Assembly: GCA_903813345.2 (NCBI GenBank)
Contig: CAIIXF020000010.1
Location: 33,035,425 to 33,099,424 of the forward strand
Origin: Owenia fusiformis
Taxonomy: Eukaryota; Annelida; Polychaeta; Sabellida; Oweniidae
Length of the DNA: 64,000 bases
Direction of reading: 5' to 3'
In this document: piece after piece, positions 30,361 to 42,354 of the stretch
Layout: every line of letters begins with the position of its first letter
Position numbering within the stretch: position 1 is the first letter of the stretch
The notes under the pieces: generated by a model
Told to the model about the DNA's origin: nothing
Seen by the model: only the letters and a program-made list of their open reading frames with translations
The model's database searches: none
Position numbers and translations under genes: made by a program

Positions 30361-30800
30361 AGGATGAGGTCAAAATAAGATAAGATCTGGTGTATGACCC
30401 AAATTCAGAAGAGTTTAACGATTTTTTGAACTGAAGTGAATTCATCATTGTTTTATGGTCTGTGAGATAACCACTGAGCTTGAATTTCCTTTATGCCACA
30501 AAAGGCATCACTGCAGATATACTCTATCCTCTGACATGGGGAGCCATTTGGGAATCGGAAATCGAACTAGGCCTCACTGTGTTGTATGTATGCTGTGAAG
30601 GAGATTCCCCACAACAGGAAATTCTTCAAATTGCATGCAGGATCAAATGATGCTGTCACACACAGAACTGACAACATATATGCCATGGAAGATGCTTGGC
30701 CCCTTATTTTTCATATCTGACCCCTAACATCTCCTTAAAACTGTTAAAAACTGCTTTTCTTATGGTGAAGCACAGAGGTTGGCTTTTTGGAAGAATGCAA
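30361..30800 (+). pseudogene. P-element/THAP9-like transposase fragment, unit 1
   Basis: Frame-by-frame reading gives DEVKI, then LEFLYATKGITADILYPLTW, then the LY-CCEGDSPQQ block corresponding to CDGASPNRKFFK, and DNIYAMEDAWPLIFHI corresponding to the 'SD-x-PHLLKT-x-RN' block. Frameshifts separate these blocks. The order and motifs match the RNase H-like catalytic domain of P-element transposases (THAP9 in vertebrates). It is not functional. Confidence 0.6.
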
Positions 30801-31432
30801 CAATTAATAATAATAATAATTCGAATTCAAATCAATCATTTAATGTTTCCAAATGGGTCTCCATTTATGTTACAACAAGTTAGAACCGTTGTTACAACTG
30901 GACCAGACTACAACAAAATAACCAGAAAGAATGGCAGGACCGGAGAGTACAATCCAGAAAACACAACAGGGTAAGACAGTACAACAGGACATGACAGTGC
31001 AACAGGACAAGACAGTTCAACAAGACATAGAGTAGTCTTCTACAGTCCTGCATTTACATTTAGTGCTAGGCTTCTCTTGAGGCCTGCTTGCAACTGTTCA
31101 CTTCATTTTCTTTGATGCCATTTTTTGTTTAATTTCCAGGACAGTATCTATGTACCAATTTAGAACTAGAACTAGATCTCAATAACTTCTTTTTTTAATA
31201 ACATGTTATAACATTATATGAAAAATATTAAATATATGATCAGAATTGGTCCAAAGAAAAAGGATGTTCTAACTGTAAACAACCTGCACCAGACTCAAAA
31301 CAGGAAATCCCACAATGGCAAGCAGTTATTATATACTATTATGGAAATTGGAAAACAATTATCTATGGTAATTCTCAATCAAATAGATTCAGATGAATTG
31401 AAGTCCATCTAATATAAGAAACAGGACTTCTA

Positions 31433-31870
31433 CAGGATGAGGTCAAAATAGAAGAAGATCTGGTGTATGACCCAAATTCAGAAGTTTAAAGGTTTTTTGA
31501 ACTGAAGTGAATTCGTCATTGTTTTATGGTCTGTGACATAACCACTGAGCTTGAATTTCCTTATGCCACAAAAGGCATCACTGCAGATATACTCTATCCT
31601 CTGACATGGGGAGCCATTTGGGAATCGGAAATCGAACTAGGCCTCACTGTGTTGTATCTATGCTGTGAAGGAGTTTCCCCACAACAGGAAATTCTTCAAA
31701 TTGCATGCAGGATCAAATGATGCTGTCATAGACAACACTGACAACATATATGCCATGGGAGATGCTTGGCCCTTATTTTTCATATCTGACCCCTAACATC
31801 TCCTTAAAACTGTTAAAAACTGCTTTTCTTATGGTGAAGCACAGAGGTTGGCTTTTTGGAAGAATGCAAC
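31433..31870 (+). pseudogene. P-element/THAP9-like transposase fragment, unit 2
   Basis: Same blocks as unit 1. GATGAGGTCAAAATAGAAGA reads DEVKIEEDLVYDPNSE, matching the conserved 'DE-x-I-x-x-x-LVYD' block whose Asp is catalytic in the family. An alternative frame across the last block (31750 on) reads SLKLLKTAFL and is out of register with the transposase. Stops and frameshifts throughout. Confidence 0.6.
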
Positions 31871-32502
31871 AATTAATAATAATAATAATTCAAATTCAAA
31901 TCAATCATTTAATGTTTCCAAATGGGTCTCCATTTATGTTACAACAAGTTAGAACCGTTGTTACAACTGGACCAGACTACAACAAAATAACCAGAAAGAA
32001 TGGCAGGACCGGAGAGTACAATCCAGAAAACACAACAGGGTAAGACAGTACAACAGGACATGACAGTGCAACAGGACAAGACAGTACAACAAGACATAGA
32101 GTAGTCTTCTACAGTCCTGCATTTACATTTAGTGCTAGGCTTCTCTTGAGGCCTGCTTGCAACTGTTCACTTCATTTTCTTTGATGCCATTTTTTGTTTA
32201 ATTTCCAGGACAGTATCTATGTACCAATTTAGAACTAGAACTAGATCTCAATAACTTCTTTTTTTAATAACATGTTATAACATTATATGAAAAATATTAA
32301 ATATATGATCAGAATTGGTCCAAAGAAAAAGGATGTTCTAACTGTAAACAACCTGCACCAGACTCAAAACAGGAAATCCCACAATGGCAAGCAGTTATTA
32401 TATACTATTATGGAAATTGGAAAACAATTATCTATGGTAATTCTCAATCAAATAGATTCAGATGAATTGAAGTCCATCTAATATAAGAAACAGGACTTCT
32501 AC

Positions 32503-32946
32503 AGGATGAGGTCAAAATAGAAGAAGATCTGGTGTATGACCCAAATTCAGAAGAGTTTAACGATTTTTTGAACTGAAGTGAATTCGTCATTGTTTTATGG
32601 TCTGTGACATAACCACTGAGCTTGAATTTCCTTATGCCACAAAAGGCATCACTGCAGATATACTCTATCCTCTGACATGGGGAGCCATTCGGGAATCGGA
32701 AATCGAACTAGGCCTCACTGTGTTGTATGTATGCTGTGAAGGAGCTTCACCACAAAAGGAAATTCTTCAAATTGCATGTGGGATCAAATGATGCTGCCAT
32801 AGACAGCAATGACAACATATATGCCATGGAAGATGCTTGACCCTTATTTTTCATATCTGACCCCTAATATCTCCTTAAAACTGTTAAAAACTGCTTTTCT
32901 TATGGTGAAGCACAGAGGTTGGCTTTTTGGAAGAATGCAACAATTA
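32503..32946 (+). pseudogene. P-element/THAP9-like transposase fragment, unit 3
   Basis: Contains DEVKIEEDLVYDPNSEEFND, YATKGITADILYPLTWGAI and LTVLYVCCEGASP in separate frames. It ends at CAATTAA where a piggyBac-type fragment (CCTTTATGGTGG...) replaces the continuation present in units 1 and 2. Confidence 0.6.
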
Positions 32947-33051
32947 ACCTTTATGGTGGACAAATACGATCACAACGAAAATGTGGAGGAAATGGATTAC
33001 GATTTCGAGCTTTTTAAGCTCTTGGAAGCCGATAACGGTCATCGAAAATAG
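32946..33051 (+). pseudogene. piggyBac-type remnant inserted at TTAA
   Basis: TTAACCTTTATGG starts at the TTAA of the P-element unit. From ATG 32953 a 32-codon frame (DKYDHNENVEEMD... LLEADNGHRK, stop 33049-33051) is almost identical to 11068-11166. Sequence identity with the 11-kb copy ends just after TAGAAA in both. It appears to be a severely deleted piggyBac element, its left end CCTTTA followed almost directly by the leader codons. Confidence 0.5.
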
Positions 33052-33109
33052 AAAGTTGACTATCGCAGGCATGACTAGTGAAGACATTTCAATTATTTTC
33101 TTGAAAAAT

Positions 33110-33600
33110 TGAAAGCGATGAAATATAATCTGGGCTATTACATAAAAAATCCATGGAAGATGCTTGGCCCTTATTTTTCATATCTGACCCCTAACATCTC
33201 CTTAAAACTGTTAAAAACTGCTTTTCTTATGGAGAAGCACAGAGGTTGGCTTTTTGGAAGAATGCAACAATTAATAATAATAATAATTCAAATTCAAATC
33301 AATCATTTAATGTTTCCAAATGGGTCTCCATTTATGTTACAACAAGTTAGAACCGTTGTTACAAGAGTCAGGATAAAGTAATTCCGTACAATCCTCTCAA
33401 CATTGAATACATTACTCAAGTTCTTCAATCGCCAAATACACAGCGCTGACAACATGTATGCCATGGAAGATGCTTGACCCTTATTTTTCATATCTGACCA
33501 ACAAAATCTCCTTAAACTGTTAAAAACTGCTTTTTTATGGTGTAGCACAGAGGTTGGTTTTTTGGCAGAGTGCAACAATTAATTATTTCTTGGCGACACA
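33110..33600 (+). pseudogene. Partial P-element-like fragments
   Basis: 33140-33360 repeats the final block of units 1-3 (ATGCTTGGCCCTTATTTTTC... GTTAGAACCGTTGTTACA). 33450-33600 carries a further diverged copy (GCCATGGAAGATGCTTGACC). Between them 33365-33440 (GTAATTCCGTACAATC...) matches 34545-34620. All frames are broken. Confidence 0.55.
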
Positions 33601-34061
33601 TCATATCCCTTTATAACCAACACTGCCATCAATTGTATAATTGATGCGCAAAACTCAATAGAGATGAAATTCATTTTAATGAATAGCACTGCATCACGAA
33701 GGTGATTGAAATCAATCATTTAATGTTTCCAAATTGGTCTCCATTTATGTTACAACAAGTCCAGAAAGAACAACTGGACCAAAGTACAACAAAATAACCA
33801 GAAAAAATGGCAGGACCGGGGAGTTTGCAGATGAAGTTAAAGATTGAAATTCTGGATGAAGTTCTTCTCAATCAAACGGATTCAGATGAATTGAAGTCCA
33901 TCTCATATAAGAAACGGAACTTCTACAGGTTGAGGTAAAAAAAGAAGAAGATCTGGTGAAAGGAAAGTGAAGGAAACTTGGGGAGTATCATATAAAATCT
34001 GCAAAGCAATTAACAATGGTCAGTATGTAAACTTAGTGGAACTACTACCATCAAATATGTA
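33601..34061. repeat. Duplicated spacer of the P-element region
   Basis: 33600-33810 (ACACATCATATCCCTTTATA and onwards) recurs at about 34770-34990, and the GATTGAAATTCTGGATGAAG block recurs near 33845, 35010, 35035 and 35058. No coding region is visible beyond shared fragments. Confidence 0.6.
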
Positions 34062-34620
34062 GAACCAATATGTGGATATTCATTATACTGAACGAACATT
34101 ATGTTGTGATAACGGAGAAATAAAAATCAACAAGAAATATAAACAAACACAAATACAATTCGTGAATAGCTGGTTATCAGCATGGCACACTTATGAACGT
34201 TTCATTATGGAAATGCATCAACAATATTACAAAGATCTACACAATTACAGATGCCACATTCTTGAGTGTGATAAGAAGTATCAATGGTTGGCTATATGCC
34301 AAATTAGATATCAAATTTAGGATTAAAATAAGGAGCAGAAAAATAAAGGAAATTTGGAAATCTTGATAGTTTCCTGTATACCACCACATTGTATGCATCA
34401 GTGAAATCTAAAACAGACAAAACACAAGAAATTTGCAATAAATTCCAGTATGGAGAGTGTTCATTCGGAGAAAAATGTTTCAGAAAAGAAATGTAACTGC
34501 AAAATTTAAAAGCTGCCATTCACCAAATGTGATTGTACGAAGTCAGGATAAAGTAATTCCGTACAATACTCTCAACATTGAATACATTACTCCAGTTCTT
34601 CAATTGCCAAATACACAGCG
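34062..34620 (+). pseudogene. DIRS/tyrosine-recombinase-element Gag-like CCCH fragment
   Basis: A frame from 34072 gives IHYTERTLCCDNGEIKI, FVNSWLSAWHTYERF, DLHNYRCHILECDKKYQW. Further codons with a frameshift give CNKFQYGECSFGEKCFRK, a CCCH-type zinc finger (C-x7-C-x5-C). This order (Trp-rich helical domain, then a CCCH finger, then a 'TP-x-x-x-x-x-L' stretch at 34570-34600) is one I associate with the first ORF of DIRS-like or related tyrosine-recombinase elements in aquatic invertebrates. At least two frame breaks show it is dead; no RT or recombinase follows. Confidence 0.4.
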
Positions 34621-35100
34621 CTGACAACACATATGCCATGGAAGGTGCTCAACCCTTTTTTCATATCTGACCAACAAAATCTCCTTAAACTGTTAAAAAC
34701 TGCTTTTTTATGGTGTAGCACAGAGGTTGGTTTTTTGGCAGAGTGCAACAATTAATTATTTCTTGGCAACACATCATATCCCTTTATAACCAACAGTGCC
34801 ATCAATTATATAATTGATGCGCAAAACTCAATAGAGATGAAATTCATTTTAATGAATAGCACTGCATCACGAAGGTGATTGATATCAATTATTTAATGTT
34901 TCCAAATGTGTCTCCATTTATGTTACAACAAGTCCAGAAAGTACAACTGGACCAAGTACAACAAAATTACCAGAAAGAATGGCAGGACCGGAGAGTTTGC
35001 AGATGAAGTTAAGGATTGAAATTCTGGATGAAGTTAAAGATTGAAATTCTGGATGAAGTTAAAGATTGAAATTCTGGATGAAATTCTTCTCAATCAAACA
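34621..35100. repeat. Second copy of the 33.4-33.85 kb segment
   Basis: Follows the order of 33420-33860 with an offset of about 1.17 kb, including the partial P-element block GTTGGTTTTTTGGCAGAGTG. A 24-bp unit (AAAGATTGAAATTCTGGATG) is present in three tandem copies at 35005-35080. Confidence 0.65.
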
Positions 35101-35700
35101 GATTCAGATGAATTCAAGTCTATCTTATATAACAAAAGATACTCCTACAGAATGAGGTCAAAATAAAAAAGGATCTGGTGTATGGGCCAAATTCAGAAGA
35201 GTTTAAAGGTTTTGTAAACTTAAGTGAATTTGTATATATTTAGGAATATATGTCAGATGCACCTTAACAAAATCATTTTGCAAAGTATGTCATTGTTTTT
35301 ATGGTCTGTGAGATAACCACTGAGCTTGAATTTCCTTTATGCCACAAAAGGCATCACTGCATGCTCTATCCTCTGACATGGGGAGCCATTTCGGAATCGG
35401 AAATCAAACTAGGCCTCACTGTGTTGTATTTATGCTGTGATGGAGCTTCACAACAAAAGGAAATTCTTCAAATTACATGGAGGATCAAATGATGCTGTCA
35501 TACACAGCACTGACAACATATATGCCATGGGAGATGCCCTGCCCTTATTTTTTATATCTGACCTCCAACATCTCCTAAAAACTGTTGAAAACTTTTTTTC
35601 TCATGATGTAGCCATGGAAGAATGCAACAATTAATTATTCTTTAAATCAAGCATTTCATGTTTCAAATGGGGCTCCATTTAATTTGACATCTCATATTAC
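35101..35700 (+). pseudogene. P-element/THAP9-like transposase fragment, best-preserved copy
   Basis: 35150-35245 reads NEVKIKKDLVYGPNSEEFKG then FVNLSEF, matching the 'DE-x-I-x-x-DLVYD... GFVNLG' block, with the catalytic-block Asp changed to Asn. 35301-35480 gives an ELEFP block, LTWGAI, and LTVLYLCCDGAS where the Asp is present. 35437-35634 is open for 65 codons and includes FFKLHGGSNDAVIHSTDNIY and LFFISDLQHLLKTVENFF, the 'FISD-x-PHLLKT-x-RN' block. Frames change between blocks, some of which may be former introns. LTSHI at about 35683 may be the start of the C-terminal block. Confidence 0.65.
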
Positions 35701-36600: not shown

Positions 36601-36908
36601 ATGTAACATTGTGTCTATTTATTCACTTGTACAAGTTACATAACTGTTGTGAGTTTAAGAGTATCAATCAAGGTCCTCATGCAAATAAGATTCAATTAAC
36701 ATTAAGGAAGTTAGATGATACCCAAAGAAGAGGGTTGAAATTTTTGGGTCATCCTGTATTTGTCATGTTATATATGCGCTTTTCTTGTAGCTGCCATTCA
36801 GAAATTGGTGACCCGCCTCATTCGGACAAAGGTGCATGGTATCGGTTCATTGGTTTTCTCAATTTGTTTGTCCCATAATCATGGCTCCAATACAACAATA
36901 GCCATGTT

Positions 36909-37236
36909 TGTATTGTATTGTATTTTGTTTACCACCAATGAAGGTGAGCAATACCTCTTAGGTATATCCCGTATATATACGGTCGTAATTTACGAAAATT
37001 AACCTGGAAGATAGACCCAGAAACCCCTCCTTGAAGGAGCCCTGTGTTCTTTTATGTGCACTTATACATAGACATACAAGTACACCACAGCCTTTTGTAC
37101 GAGTTGCGGACCACTCAGTCAAACACCCTGAAGTACTTCACGCAAACAAGCAAATTTAGTATTGCCTGAACCGGGGATCGAATCCGGGACCTATTGCGTA
37201 AGAGGTACCTGCGCTACCGCTGAGCTACACAGGTGG
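36909..37236 (-). mobile_element. tRNA-derived SINE inserted in copy A
   Basis: Read on the minus strand, it begins with a tRNA-like head: CCACCTGTGTAGCTCAGCGG (A-box region) and GGATTCGATCCCCGG (B-box region). A body of about 240 bp follows, ending in an ATACA-type tail (CAATACAATACAAAC). Copies B and C of the surrounding repeat read AATAGCCGTGTTGCTCC without the insert, giving precise empty sites. The insertion therefore followed the duplication or hit only this copy. The target duplication is short and not certain. Confidence 0.8.
37160..37236 (-). promoter_or_regulatory. Internal RNA polymerase III promoter (tRNA-like head of the SINE)
   Basis: TAGCTCAGCGGTAGCGC fits an A box and GGATTCGATCC a B box, spaced as in tRNA genes. 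The acceptor and anticodon stems pair poorly, so this is a SINE head rather than a functional tRNA gene. Confidence 0.65.
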
Positions 37237-37950
37237 ACATTGCTCCAATTCTCCAACCAGATGACATCACTATCCCAACATTATTTCAACAGCTTGGCAT
37301 CTGCTTGAGGGAACATAAGAATGGGTGTGTAAGATAGTGTTTATAACTTAAAATAATATAAACATCTTCAATAGATCAATGAATGACAGATATTCAAAAA
37401 TAGAAATTAACACAAATTAATATAGAAGTAACAATGTTGGTTGTCTGCACTATATTGGATATTGCTTGTCGCAAGGGCAACGCTATAATTTGTGGAACTC
37501 GTATAGTAGGCTTGGACTTTTAGTTAAATAATGAATAAATAAGTATAACTCATCATTTATATTGGAAATTTAAATCAAATGTACAAACACACATTATGGA
37601 AAGTAGCAGAGCCCAAGTACATTATCAGGATAGTTAATTCTATAAAGAATGTTAAAGAGTTATCAATTATTTAAATTTGTGTTTTATACAGGTACATGCT
37701 CACAAATTCATTGATACCAACATGGGATGCTAGTACTTATTTGTTACCTACCATGAGCTTCTTGATGGTTGGTCACACACACGAAGATATAGATCAGCTT
37801 TTTCAGTAAAAACATGACCTGAACTAGCTTGAGATTAAGTTTGAGAGTAAGAGATCATTATAAAAAAACACAATTTATCCAACTTTCATTTGGTATATCA
37901 ATCCTGTCTTGTGTACATTTTTATCATTGTATTGCAAAAAAATATAGAGA

Positions 37951-38661
37951 TTAAGATTCAATTAACATAAAGGAAGTTAGATGATACCCAAAGAAGAGGG
38001 TTGCAATTTTTTGGTCATCCTGTATTTGTCATGTTATATATGCGCTTTTGTTGTAGCTGCCATTCAGAAATTGGTGACCAGCCTCATTCGGGCAAAGGTG
38101 CATGGTATCGGTTCATTTGGTTTTCTCAATTTGTTTGTCCCATAATCATGGCTCCAAAACAACAATAGCCGTGTTGCTCCAAATCTCCAACCAGATGACA
38201 TCACTATCCCAACATTATTTCAACAGCTTGACATCTGCTCGAGGGAACACAAGAACATGTGTGTAAGATAGTGTTTATAACTTAAAATAATATAAATGTC
38301 TTCAATAGATCAATGAATGACAGATATTCAAAAATGGAAATTAAAACAAATGAATATAGAAGTAACAATGTTGGTTATCTGTACTATATTGGATATTGCT
38401 TGTCGCAAGTGCAACTCTATAATTTATAGAACTCAAATAGTAGGCTTGGATTATTTTAGTTAAATAATGAATAAATAAGTTTAACTCATCATTATTAATT
38501 GGAACAAACACACATTATGGAAAGTAGCAGAGCCCAAGTACATTATCAGGATCGTTTATTCTATAAAGAATGTTAAAGAGTTATCAATTATTTAAATTTG
38601 TGTTTTATACAGGTAGATGCTCACTAATTCAATGATACCAACCTGGGACGCTAGTACTTAT
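37951..38661 (+). pseudogene. VGHTHEDIDQ-family exons, tandem copy B
   Basis: Repeats copy A from AAGATTCAATTAACATAAAGG onward without the SINE. 38190-38263 gives PDDITIPTLFQQLDICSREH and KN before the donor GTAAGA. The second exon starts at 38613 but is cut after CTAGTACTTA, at the junction with copy C, before the GHTHEDID block. Confidence 0.55.
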
Positions 38662-39447
38662 AAGATTCAATTAACATTAAGGAAGTTAGATGATACCCAA
38701 AGAAGAGTTGCAATTTTTGGGTCATCCTGTATTTGTCATGTTATATATGCGCTTTTGTTGTAGCTGCCATCAGAAATTGGTGACCAGCCTCATTCGGGCA
38801 AAGGTGCATGGTATCGGTTCATTTGGTTTTCTCAATTTGTTTGTCCCATAATCATGGCTCCAATACAACAATAGCCGTGTTGCTCCAAATCTCCAACCAG
38901 ATGACATCACTATCCCAACATTATTTCAACAGCTTGACATCTGCTTGAGGGAACATAAGAACAGGAGTGTAAGATAGTGTTTATAACTTAAAATAATATA
39001 AATGTCTTCAATAGATCAATGATTAACAGATATTCAAAAATAGAAATTAAAACAAATGAATATAGAAGTAACAATGTTGGTTATCTGTACTATATTGGAT
39101 ATTGCTTGTCGCAAGAGCAACGCTATAATTTGTAGAACTCAAATAGTAGGCTTGGATTATTTTAGTTAAATAATGAATAAATAAGTTTAACTCATCATTA
39201 TTAATTGGAAATTTGAATCAAATGTACAAACACACATTATGGAAAGTAGCAGAGCCCAAGTACATTATCAGGATAGTTAATTCTATAAAGAATGTTAAAG
39301 AGTTATCAATTATTTAAATTTGTGTTTTATACAGGTACATGCTCACAAATTCATTGATACCAACATGGGATGCTAGTACTTATTTGTTACCTACCATGAG
39401 CTTCTTGATGGTTGGACACACACACAAAGATATAGATCAGCTTTTCA
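38662..39447 (+). pseudogene. VGHTHEDIDQ-family exons, tandem copy C
   Basis: Starts AAGATTCAATTAACATTAAG directly at the truncated exon of copy B. It carries the same first-exon blocks and the complete second exon (39335-39447): IPTWDASTYLLPTMSFLMVG then HTHKDIDQLF, with Glu replaced by Lys. One T is missing before the donor relative to copy A. This copy is the nearest to the downstream exons. Confidence 0.55.
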
Positions 39448-39830
39448 GTTAAAACATGACCTGAACTAGTTTGAGATTAAGTTTGAGAGTAAGAGATCTT
39501 TACAATAGTATATAGAAATCTATATTAGAACTTAAAATAGTAATCAATCAAAGTACAATATGTCTCAAATCTTTTAATTTTGTTCAACTGGTATGTCATA
39601 TCTTTTTTCAGCATGTGTAAAGAAGATTTCAAAAATAATTTTTCTCCCACAAGTCATGTAAAATAGTCAAAACATCAACATAAATACAGAGCCTTTTTGT
39701 TATGTCTATGTTATTACACAAATGGCTATATCAGAGTAAGATTCAAATAACAAAGGAAATTTTAATAGTTTATTAAAATTGTGTTTTAAACCAATGATTT
39801 CAGTCTAAATGTTATATTAAGTAATTGCAG

Positions 39831-39977
39831 ATTTGCCAAGCACCTAAAGAAGAATTCATCTAAAACTATGGATGATCTCATTTACTTTGAGGCCTACATG
39901 GACCCACACCTTGTGATTTCAAAGAGTGTACAGATCCGCATACAACAGCGCAACGTTGGGTATTGTGTGGGGCATTA
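39831..39977 (+). pseudogene. Downstream exon of the VGHTHEDIDQ-family gene
   Basis: Acceptor GTAATTGCAG then a frame reading FAKHLKKNSSKTMDDLIYFE, AYMDPHLV and on to a TAA at 39975-39977. Joined to the upstream exon it continues DQLF-x-x-FAKHLKK, as family members continue after the motif. A stop rather than a donor ends it, so the gene is probably broken here or this is a retained relic. Confidence 0.45.
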
Positions 39978-40895
39978 AAGAGTGGTTCAAAATCACAAAG
40001 CCAATAAACATTACTAAAACTTATCTTAGGCCTATCATAATGTCATATTAGTAGATGGTCAAGGGGTGACATATTATTCCATCATCAATAATAAAGTTTA
40101 TGTTTACAGAAATGGAAAAGAAAACTACGATAGAAGGAAGTTCATATATTAAAGAAATCTATGGTCAGCAATTGAGCCCAGAAAAGGTAGTAATCACATG
40201 GCATTTTAAACAAGGTGGAAAAATTTCTGACCTTAAGTCATTAACATAAAGTTAAGTATATTCAACCCAAAATAATTTTCATTCAACTAGCAGGAAATGA
40301 TGCATCACATTCATAGTAAAAGAAAAAAAAATCAAATGATAAATGTACATGCAGTTGAAAGATAAGTAAAAATACTATATTGAATTACTAATAAATCAAA
40401 TCAAATGGATCTCAATAATAAAGGCCTCAATATACACTAAAAGACCATGAAAATGCAATGAACCATGCATTGAATCTAAATATATGAAAGTAAATACAAA
40501 TTATTATGTCTTAAAATAAATGACAATTATTATGTAAATCTATAAAAGAATTTTCAACTTCATAAAAATATAAATTTCAATAAAACAATGTTTCAATCAA
40601 TTCAAATTATAATCATAATAGATAACACGAAGCATTTAACTATTAGAAGTACTTACATAGTCAAAATAACAAGGTTTGACATGGGACAGAGTTTTTGATC
40701 AATATCAAGATCTTTACCATAGCTTGGAAGTATTCTCATAATCAAAGTTGTTTTCCTTATATTTAGGGTTGATCATGGCACATAAATATCCATATAATAT
40801 GTTGAACACAGTAATTCAAAACAAACGAAAAAAATCAACATAACATTGACAATACACATATAGTGTGACCATTTCGTAATGTGGAGAATGAATTG
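39978..40895. other. AT-rich stretch with one possible exon
   Basis: TTTATGTTTACAG (ends 40110) precedes an open run MEKKTTIEGSSYIKEIYGQQ ending at an AAAAG/GTAGTA donor at about 40187. The remainder is AT-rich with no supported feature. Confidence 0.3.
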
Positions 40896-40900
40896 TTGGT

Positions 40901-40934
40901 ATGTTCTGCAAAAGTTGTGGAGGCAAAGCTGAGG
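40901..40934 (+). CDS. Possible exon 1 of an unrecognised spliced gene
   Basis: The codons read FCKSCGGKAE, followed by G and the consensus donor GTAAGT at 40935. The dangling G joins in phase with CT at the next exon (41113) to make an Ala codon. ATG at 40901 may be a start or internal codon. It is very short; support comes mainly from the perfect donor and phase agreement. Confidence 0.3.
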
Positions 40935-41112
40935 GTAAGTTATTTGCTTACCAAGAAATACAAGGTCACCAAACGCAATCTGAGGACTTATTCACAATGG
41001 CTTGCACTTTTGCAATTAATAAAAAGCAATCATTGAGTGTTTTTTTTATTTTCAAAACAAACAATTTTTCAAGTACCGTAGCAAATTGCAATTAAATTGC
41101 TAATATTTATAG

Positions 41113-41201
41113 CTGAGCTAATATCCAAGCGAAAACTAGTTACTAGAATAAAAGAACATTGGAGACCTACATTACTGTCGTCTGGAGCTCTTGCTTCTGC
41201 G
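41113..41201 (+). CDS. Possible exon 2 of an unrecognised spliced gene
   Basis: An acceptor (AATATTTATAG) precedes 29 open codons, ELISKRKLVTRIKEHWRPTL and on to SSGALASA, then the donor GTAATT at 41202. It is basic and helical in character. It lies 1.1 kb after the VGHTHEDIDQ-family exons on the same strand and could be a 3' part of that gene. I do not recognise it. Confidence 0.3.
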
Positions 41202-42354
41202 GTAATTCAACATTCCATGTAATATGATCATAATATGAATTGGAACATTGTAAAAATTATTGATAATGAGAGTCATGACCTTAAATGTTCATGTTATTAA
41301 GCCAAAGTTTCCGAAATGATGGCCAAACTATAATGATCTAAGAGCAGTGCAGAGATGCTGATAAAATTTCACCAAGTTTCTCAAATAAACACACTCAATT
41401 TATCAACTTGATTGTTTTTAATTTGTACGACCTTTTAGTGATGATTAGTGGTAGTGCATCAATTTTGTGAGAAATAGTGGTAACAATTCGTACGACCTTT
41501 TTCTATAAAAGGTTGCCATTCATACTACTATTGTTTTGAGGAGAATTTGCAACTCTGGTTACTAGGTTTAGGTATTTTGTTACAAAAATCTTCCATTGTC
41601 CTATGATGTCATAAATGTATGCTGTTCCCAAAATATCCAGAGAAAACACACATTGACACAAGAAGATATAGCAACATTGACACTAGTAATGACAAGACAG
41701 CTCCATCAACATTGATTCCAGCAGTGACAAAAACATTGAAACTAGCAACTTCACCAGCATCAACAGTTACACCAAAAAAAGATTAGGTTTGCTAAAAAAA
41801 ACTATTGTAATCTGTAGGTTTTTTGATGATCTCAGGATTATAATGTGAGACTACGTGAAAAAACACTATGTTAGCAGGATGACCTGTCCCTGGCCAACTT
41901 TATTAATAAATTTCAAACTTTTAATTAATTTCAGAGACAAAGATTAAGCAAAACAGGTTTTATAAGAGAAAAAAGTCACCTGCATTTTATATCTAAAATA
42001 CAAGTTATCAGAATTAATTTCAAAAATGCATGTTTAATTTTAAGTAACTAGCTAAGTATAAATAAATAATATTTGCTAATCAATAGTGTAATATGATACC
42101 AATATAATATTTACACTGTACATTTGTATATAATGTATATACATGTATTGCAGTACTGAATGTAGAAAATGTTACAAGCATATTGCTTAAGCATAGGAAG
42201 ACAGTAGTAGATACTTGTTGATAATCATTGATAGTATGGATTAGGCCAAGATCATGCTGTCAAGATTTCCATTAGTATATCTAGTAGGTTAAATGTGCAA
42301 GTGTTAAACAATATTTTATGACGTCATCATATTTACTGTTTTACTGTTATTCCC
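41202..42354. other. AT-rich stretch with no identifiable gene
   Basis: 41650-41790 has weakly repetitive Thr/Ser-type codons (GACAC, CAACATTGA repeats) but no domain. Nothing else is supported. Confidence 0.4.

Follow-up and report, generated by a model that had tools for sequence, protein, structure and literature searches.

Sola transposons are described as carrying a DDD transposase, named for three aspartates, and as having 4-bp target duplications, variable termini and inverted repeats of 11-1124 bp; in the account given in PMC10741241 most are 2-9 kb long and some exceed 15 kb. For Sola2, the section of PMC3627910 on these elements reports A/T-rich 4-bp target duplications, and the relevant part of PMC10294476 gives a mean length of 5,445 bp for bivalve Sola1. 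An element of 21.5 kb from Ectocarpus, Sola1-1_Ec32, bears on the opposite strand a gene whose product combines ParB-like and DNA-methyltransferase domains, according to the portion of PMC12477816 that deals with it. KolobokP, as outlined in PMC9587614, is a DNA transposon that encodes a second protein besides its DDD/E transposase and occurs in seven animal phyla including annelids. In this study we analysed 64,000 nucleotides of the annelid Owenia fusiformis (assembly GCA_903813345.2, contig CAIIXF020000010.1; C10:33035425-33099424, plus strand), a stretch referred to here as the window, against the whole genome of 498 Mb in 525 contigs (C1, C2 and so on). The window holds three tandem units related to the Pfam domain DUF7869 (PF25273), which very probably are the remains of a DUF7869 gene left by a large DNA transposon. 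On this view a dead piece of the gene was triplicated on the spot, and DUF7869 would be the DDD transposase of elements of 23-36 kb. This reading draws on better-preserved relatives elsewhere in the genome, which show inverted repeats with 4-bp target duplications, empty sites, near-identical copies at dispersed places, the pairing of two genes and conserved aspartates.

Running the PF25273 profile in six frames over the whole genome (curated cut-off 26 bits) gave 95 matches, the best of 97 bits. We found DUF7869 genes inside elements of 23-36 kb with inverted terminal repeats longer than 120 bp, which fall into four groups, A to D; group D shares its exon layout with the window copy. Between four group A copies (one on C1, two on C6 and one on C9), the longest blocks that align measure 4.6-6.8 kb and show 98.0-99.7% identity. 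A 128-bp probe from the ends of groups A and B had 25 matches, and 22 of these make up 11 inverted pairs whose members lie 20-73 kb apart; the end probes of groups C and D gave 9 and 8 matches, respectively, with three inverted pairs each, 23-31 kb apart. The termini differ by group, reading AAGTCC in A and B, AACAGG in C and AACAGA in D. The preliminary description of the locus had suggested looking for terminal repeats around intact copies, and around better-preserved copies such repeats are present and inverted: 16 of the 17 end pairs enclose DUF7869 matches. Apart from one pair on C12, whose ends lie 72.5 kb apart and which is probably chimeric, the pairs that contain DUF7869 are 23-36 kb apart. 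The exception without DUF7869, C2:24861461-24882040, is 20.6 kb long, ends like groups A and B, is flanked by the duplication CTAA, and contains neither a DUF7869 match nor a match to the second gene described below; it is probably a non-autonomous element that was moved in trans. Two other candidate ends were rejected. The sequence TTTTGTCAAG proved to be a repeat of the interspersed kind, with 429 candidate matches of which 40 were scored, the true ends being the inverted pairs, and a break of homology in group C at C12:2974580 was not an end either. Inside a group C element, a frame at L056:915-1424 looks ubiquitin-like by eye (IIEKRCTIILPDGEKLIAKI...) and has no Pfam match.

In this genome, discrete elements bounded by inverted repeats insert at target sites of 4 bp and have multiplied recently. 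The flanking sequences on either side were read for every pair except that on C66, and 14 of these 16 pairs show exact 4-bp duplications of varied, mostly A/T-rich sequence. Eight of ten group A/B pairs have them (TTAT, AAGA, ATGA, ACAC, AAAA, ATTA, CATT, CTAA), as do all six pairs of groups C and D, with ends read as AACAG... (ATAT, TTCG, ATTT, TTGA, TATT, ATAA). Moreover, the element at C4:29782554-29810234 interrupts an open frame, which is presumably reverse-transcriptase-like as judged by a FADD motif; its joined flanks read GDPLSPLMFNIYINDVVEELTLESDLKLQKQKISCLLFADDLAII and are free of stops. Of the 28 matches to these flanks, 26 span the junction elsewhere, nine of them with 100% identity across all 180 bases; the other two represent the occupied site, split into its halves. 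The 26 uninterrupted matches are empty sites. For a second element, the flanks of which lie in a palindromic repeat, uninterrupted matches across the junction were found as well, the best being 99% identical over 148 bases. The ratio of nonsynonymous to synonymous substitution rates (dN/dS) was limited by saturation of dS in four of six pairs; the other two gave 0.18 (DUF7869, C12/C46) and 0.51 (second gene).

Element A contains a second multi-exon gene on the strand opposite to DUF7869, and in each of the four groups a second gene lies opposite DUF7869. One exon of this gene from element A has 20 matches in the genome, the best 13 at E-values of 2e-19 or lower. Twelve of these 13 lie within 25 kb of a DUF7869 match (four in group A, five in group B, and one each on C144, C12 and C7); the remaining one, C12:30328536, has no DUF7869 match listed nearby. 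Even at the most divergent of these 13 places, the second protein shares 41-46% identity with that of element A. The relative in group C scored 44.9 bits. In group D the exons of the second gene can be read by eye and were missed by the default search; with filters off, the frame ranked first of 24 (E-value 0.0005, 10.5 bits, single stretches at most 3.2 bits). With modest confidence, the sequence of the second protein suggests that it is ParB-like.

The exons of the groups yield the blocks YLSIIIDGMDQAK, LYLQxDNCxxENKN and FLxVGHTHEDID. Across DUF7869 the conserved aspartates stand in IIIDgMDQ, QxDNC and GHTHEDID, and all three are invariant in every row that reaches them (6, 7 and 5 of 8 rows in alignment A4). 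Four intronless relatives (L009, L011, L012 and L013) conserve FD, SDxC and ExDSxHxxIE blocks. An hhalign comparison of DUF7869 with this distant intronless family brought the second and third aspartates into register with a score of 36.7, while the best of 20 column shuffles reached 24.7 and a reversed profile 20.4. Accordingly, the suggestion that the paired blocks look like a catalytic centre gained support. In two copies of the distant intronless relative (5.6 and 5.9 kb), one long DUF7869-like open reading frame (ORF) and a repeat-rich ORF lie between inverted repeats of about 40 bp. L009 and L010 (C1:37270500 and C3:13185500) are near-identical intronless relatives with inverted repeats of about 40 bp, an ORF of 1005 amino acids and an adjacent ORF of short repeats; the N-terminal part resembles an OTU protease by eye only. 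A scan of genome contigs with A1 gave one partial homologue, L045 (NZIP01000002.1), in a flavobacterial metagenome bin, a contig that is perhaps a eukaryotic contaminant. This DUF7869 homologue scores 93.5 bits and adjoins an opposite-strand ORF of 1455 amino acids.

We propose that DUF7869 probably recognises the terminal inverted repeats and would excise the element and join it to staggered target DNA, a cut-and-paste reaction that would leave the 4-bp duplications. The likely catalytic aspartates would be those of IIIDgMDQ, QxDNC and GHTHEDID, carried on an RNase H-like fold. The putative ParB-like protein of the opposite strand travels with DUF7869 and probably binds the element DNA as an accessory factor. 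PF25273 is a curated domain without assigned function and is tied here to mobile elements; giving it a probable role is a useful result, and annotators can remove DUF7869 genes from host gene sets. A conserved ParB-like partner is, moreover, indicated in very large animal transposons, which is directly testable.

Several observations weigh against this interpretation. No target duplication was seen at two of the 16 pairs read (C9:1.33 Mb and the 72.5-kb pair on C12) or at either copy of the distant intronless relative. Seven weaker matches to the second gene (C3:8.57-8.65 Mb and C4:28.97 Mb) lie away from DUF7869 matches, and the second gene has no match at certain places with DUF7869, C12:35.37 Mb among them. 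The likeness to ParB comes from four of five second proteins compared with phrog_723 (best E-value 0.017) together with a reading by eye, and Pfam and PDB searches with the second protein gave no match. As to the aspartates, further acidic columns are invariant (the second D of DGMD, D53 and two glutamates), which makes the triad a choice, and the hhalign probability for the intronless family was 33% with the first aspartate outside the alignment. PDB sequence searches gave no transposase or RNase H match; A1, A2 and A3 found nothing convincing there, the best hit of A1 being a heparosan synthase (E-value 0.0038). An AlphaFold model of the partial homologue L045, made from a single sequence, reached a confidence (pLDDT) of 34. 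It predicts two strands, one running up to CDN and the next up to VGHTH, each followed by a helix, the second of which contains ECID, an order that fits an RNase H-like core at a confidence far too low to count. Finally, end-probe searches found no group A/B, C or D ends in the window, and no convincing inverted repeats surround the relic among 18 weak inverted pairs in 28000-52000. One of these pairs flanks it (33 nt, 76%, A/T-rich) and looks like chance. The absence of ends is expected for an old fragment.

Judged by published descriptions, the DUF7869 elements are rather likely to be part of the Sola superfamily or close to it. Both show 4-bp, often A/T-rich duplications, inverted repeats and variable termini, Sola being known here by description only. 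The DDD transposase of Sola has a possible counterpart in the three conserved aspartates that occur in order in DUF7869. An opposite-strand ParB-like gene is described for Sola1-1_Ec32, and one is suggested for the DUF7869 elements. Unlike most Sola elements, however, those found here are 23-36 kb long with genes split by introns, and the second gene of element A shows no methyltransferase domain in the strand scanned, in contrast to the protein attributed to Ectocarpus. Kolobok was excluded. KolobokP is likewise an animal DNA transposon with a second protein, yet by the account in PMC9587614 Kolobok duplications are TTAA only, whereas ours are variable and none of the 14 is TTAA, and KolobokP has long direct terminal repeats instead of inverted ones.

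That the elements form an undescribed superfamily unrelated to Sola is rather unlikely. Their size of 23-36 kb is far above the mean quoted for bivalve Sola1 (PMC10294476), groups A/B, C and D have termini of their own, and literature searches for DUF7869 and the GHTHEDID motif found nothing. On the other hand, variable termini, DDD, 4-bp duplications, inverted repeats of 11-1124 bp and, in some elements, lengths above 15 kb are all part of the account of Sola in PMC10741241, and the large Ectocarpus Sola-1 element with its opposite-strand ParB-like gene (PMC12477816, in the portion cited above) also speaks against the idea. The proposal of an undescribed transposon class is doubtful: the DUF7869 label is missing from the literature searched, but the hallmarks fit descriptions of Sola. 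A more far-reaching version also seems unlikely to us, namely an undescribed ancient superfamily of giant two-gene animal transposons in which a DDD transposase would act jointly with a ParB-like partner that clamps DNA and perhaps bridges the 30 kb between the ends, with one fold underlying the GHTHEDID and GHTxMEVDSxHxxIE families.

DUF7869 might instead be passenger cargo, the elements being moved by the ParB-like second gene or by an enzyme acting in trans. ParB-like proteins bind DNA, the two genes occur together at 12 of the 13 best second-gene places, and the target duplication of C2:24861461-24882040, which has no match to either gene, makes movement in trans likely. We nevertheless regard this explanation as improbable. 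The D, D, D pattern is conserved in DUF7869, the 5.6- and 5.9-kb intronless relatives place their inverted repeats around a single DUF7869-like ORF and the repeat-rich one, and the ParB-like fold is not known as that of a strand-transfer enzyme.

Taken by itself, the locus in the window is an ordinary relic. The relationship to DUF7869, proposed in the preliminary description, was borne out by two PF25273 matches above the cut-off in the genome scan, at 37753-37806 (29.8 bits, E-value 1.0e-4) and 39396-39524 (33 bits, E-value 1.1e-5). Positions 36684-39520 comprise three tandem units of a two-exon block that are 94-97% identical in pairs, introns included. The features, in window coordinates, are as follows.

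36684 to 37951 (about), plus strand: tandem unit 1, with the partner exon at 36793-36912 and 37275-37322 (QLGIC), the GHT exon at about 37692-37803 (GHTHEDIDQLF) and the PF25273 match at 37753-37806.
36907 to 37239, minus strand: insertion of 333 bp in unit 1 only, from the three-unit alignment; by eye it resembles an antisense short interspersed element of the tRNA type.
37952 to 38657, plus strand: tandem unit 2, with the partner exon at 38059-38256 (QLDIC) and the start of the second exon at about 38613-38657, truncated ahead of the GHT block.
38658 to 39520, plus strand: tandem unit 3, with the partner exon at 38774-38965 (QLDIC) and the GHT exon at about 39335-39449 (GHTHKDIDQLF).
39829 to 39912, plus strand: relic of the next DUF7869 exon (RFAKHLKKNSSKTMDDLIY...FEAYMDPHL); tblastn with the element A protein, E-value 0.14, weak alone, colinear with relatives.
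40113 to 41201, plus strand: candidate further exon relics (about 40113-40187 and 41110-41200), with splice-like borders by eye only and no significant tblastn match.
42152 to 42274, plus strand: relic of the first-aspartate exon of DUF7869 (...RYLLIIIDSMD*AKIMLSRFPL) with three in-frame stops; tblastn 68% over 41 amino acids, E-value 3.6e-12; blastn 74% over 129 bp against L040.

Ungapped identities between the units are 663/702 (units 1 and 2), 814/858 (units 1 and 3) and 683/703 (units 2 and 3). The tandem repetition noted earlier is thus real, but all three units are damaged. A tblastn search of the 64-kb window with the relative L043, filters off, found the partner exon in unit 1 in two pieces (E-values 3.6e-5 and 0.053), in unit 2 (9.0e-8) and in unit 3 (1.4e-8). 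It recovered the GHT exon from units 1 and 3 (4.9e-8 each). The partner exon had been described as kept in all three units; it is there, with a broken frame, but in unit 1 it reads QLGIC, and QLDIC occurs only in units 2 and 3. Likewise, the GHT exon is present in two copies as stated, though that of unit 3 reads GHTHKDID instead of GHTHEDID, and unit 2, which ends at the start of unit 3, has no GHT block. No unit holds intact copies of both blocks together. The further exon that was said to follow can be placed at 39829-39912 by its colinearity. ARAGORN called no tRNA in the insertion of unit 1. Since the first-aspartate exon lies downstream of the other exons, it belongs to a second relic or is a rearranged piece. 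No significant trace of the second, ParB-like gene was found in the window.

The frame that carries KVHGIG and QLDIC has a stop after LFVP in units 2 and 3, and HGSNTTIAV lies in a different frame from these (both by eye; tblastn shows the HGSN reading for unit 1). Between HGSN and QLxIC the alignment of the units contains no indel other than the insertion in unit 1. Therefore, all three units share the frame break, and the gene had probably died by the time it was duplicated locally. As the units are so similar even in their introns, the retained blocks are no sign of selection and do not represent independent conservation. The window copy would thus be an old fragment that was duplicated in tandem after its death.

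The preliminary description had left open whether the locus is a decayed transposon or a domesticated gene. We favour the transposon, of which better-preserved relatives exist. It is hardly credible that the window copy has been domesticated, or works in some other way as a host gene with tandem exons: motif blocks and splice-like borders remain visible, but the shared frame break, the in-frame stops of units 2 and 3, the three stops in the first-aspartate exon, the loss of an aspartate in unit 1, the change of glutamate to lysine in unit 3, the missing GHT exon of unit 2 and the insertion in unit 1 all speak against it. A virus-derived, Polinton-like origin of the large elements is equally far-fetched despite their size of about 30 kb and long inverted repeats, as Polintons have 6-bp target duplications against 4 bp here, a Pfam search of one strand of C6:4216500-4246600 (element A up to its last 2 kb) found DUF7869 only, and scans of viral contigs with one exon, A1, A2 and a GHTHEDID codon pattern as seed, which reach mainly close relatives, gave no DUF7869 relative.

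Two other features were seen in the window, both within 30400-35500. A separate relic with tandem repeats of about 1 kb lies at about 30.5-33.4 kb, and a P-element-like TNP-like RNase H N-terminal domain (PF21787, E-value 1.4e-9) was found at about 35139-35462.

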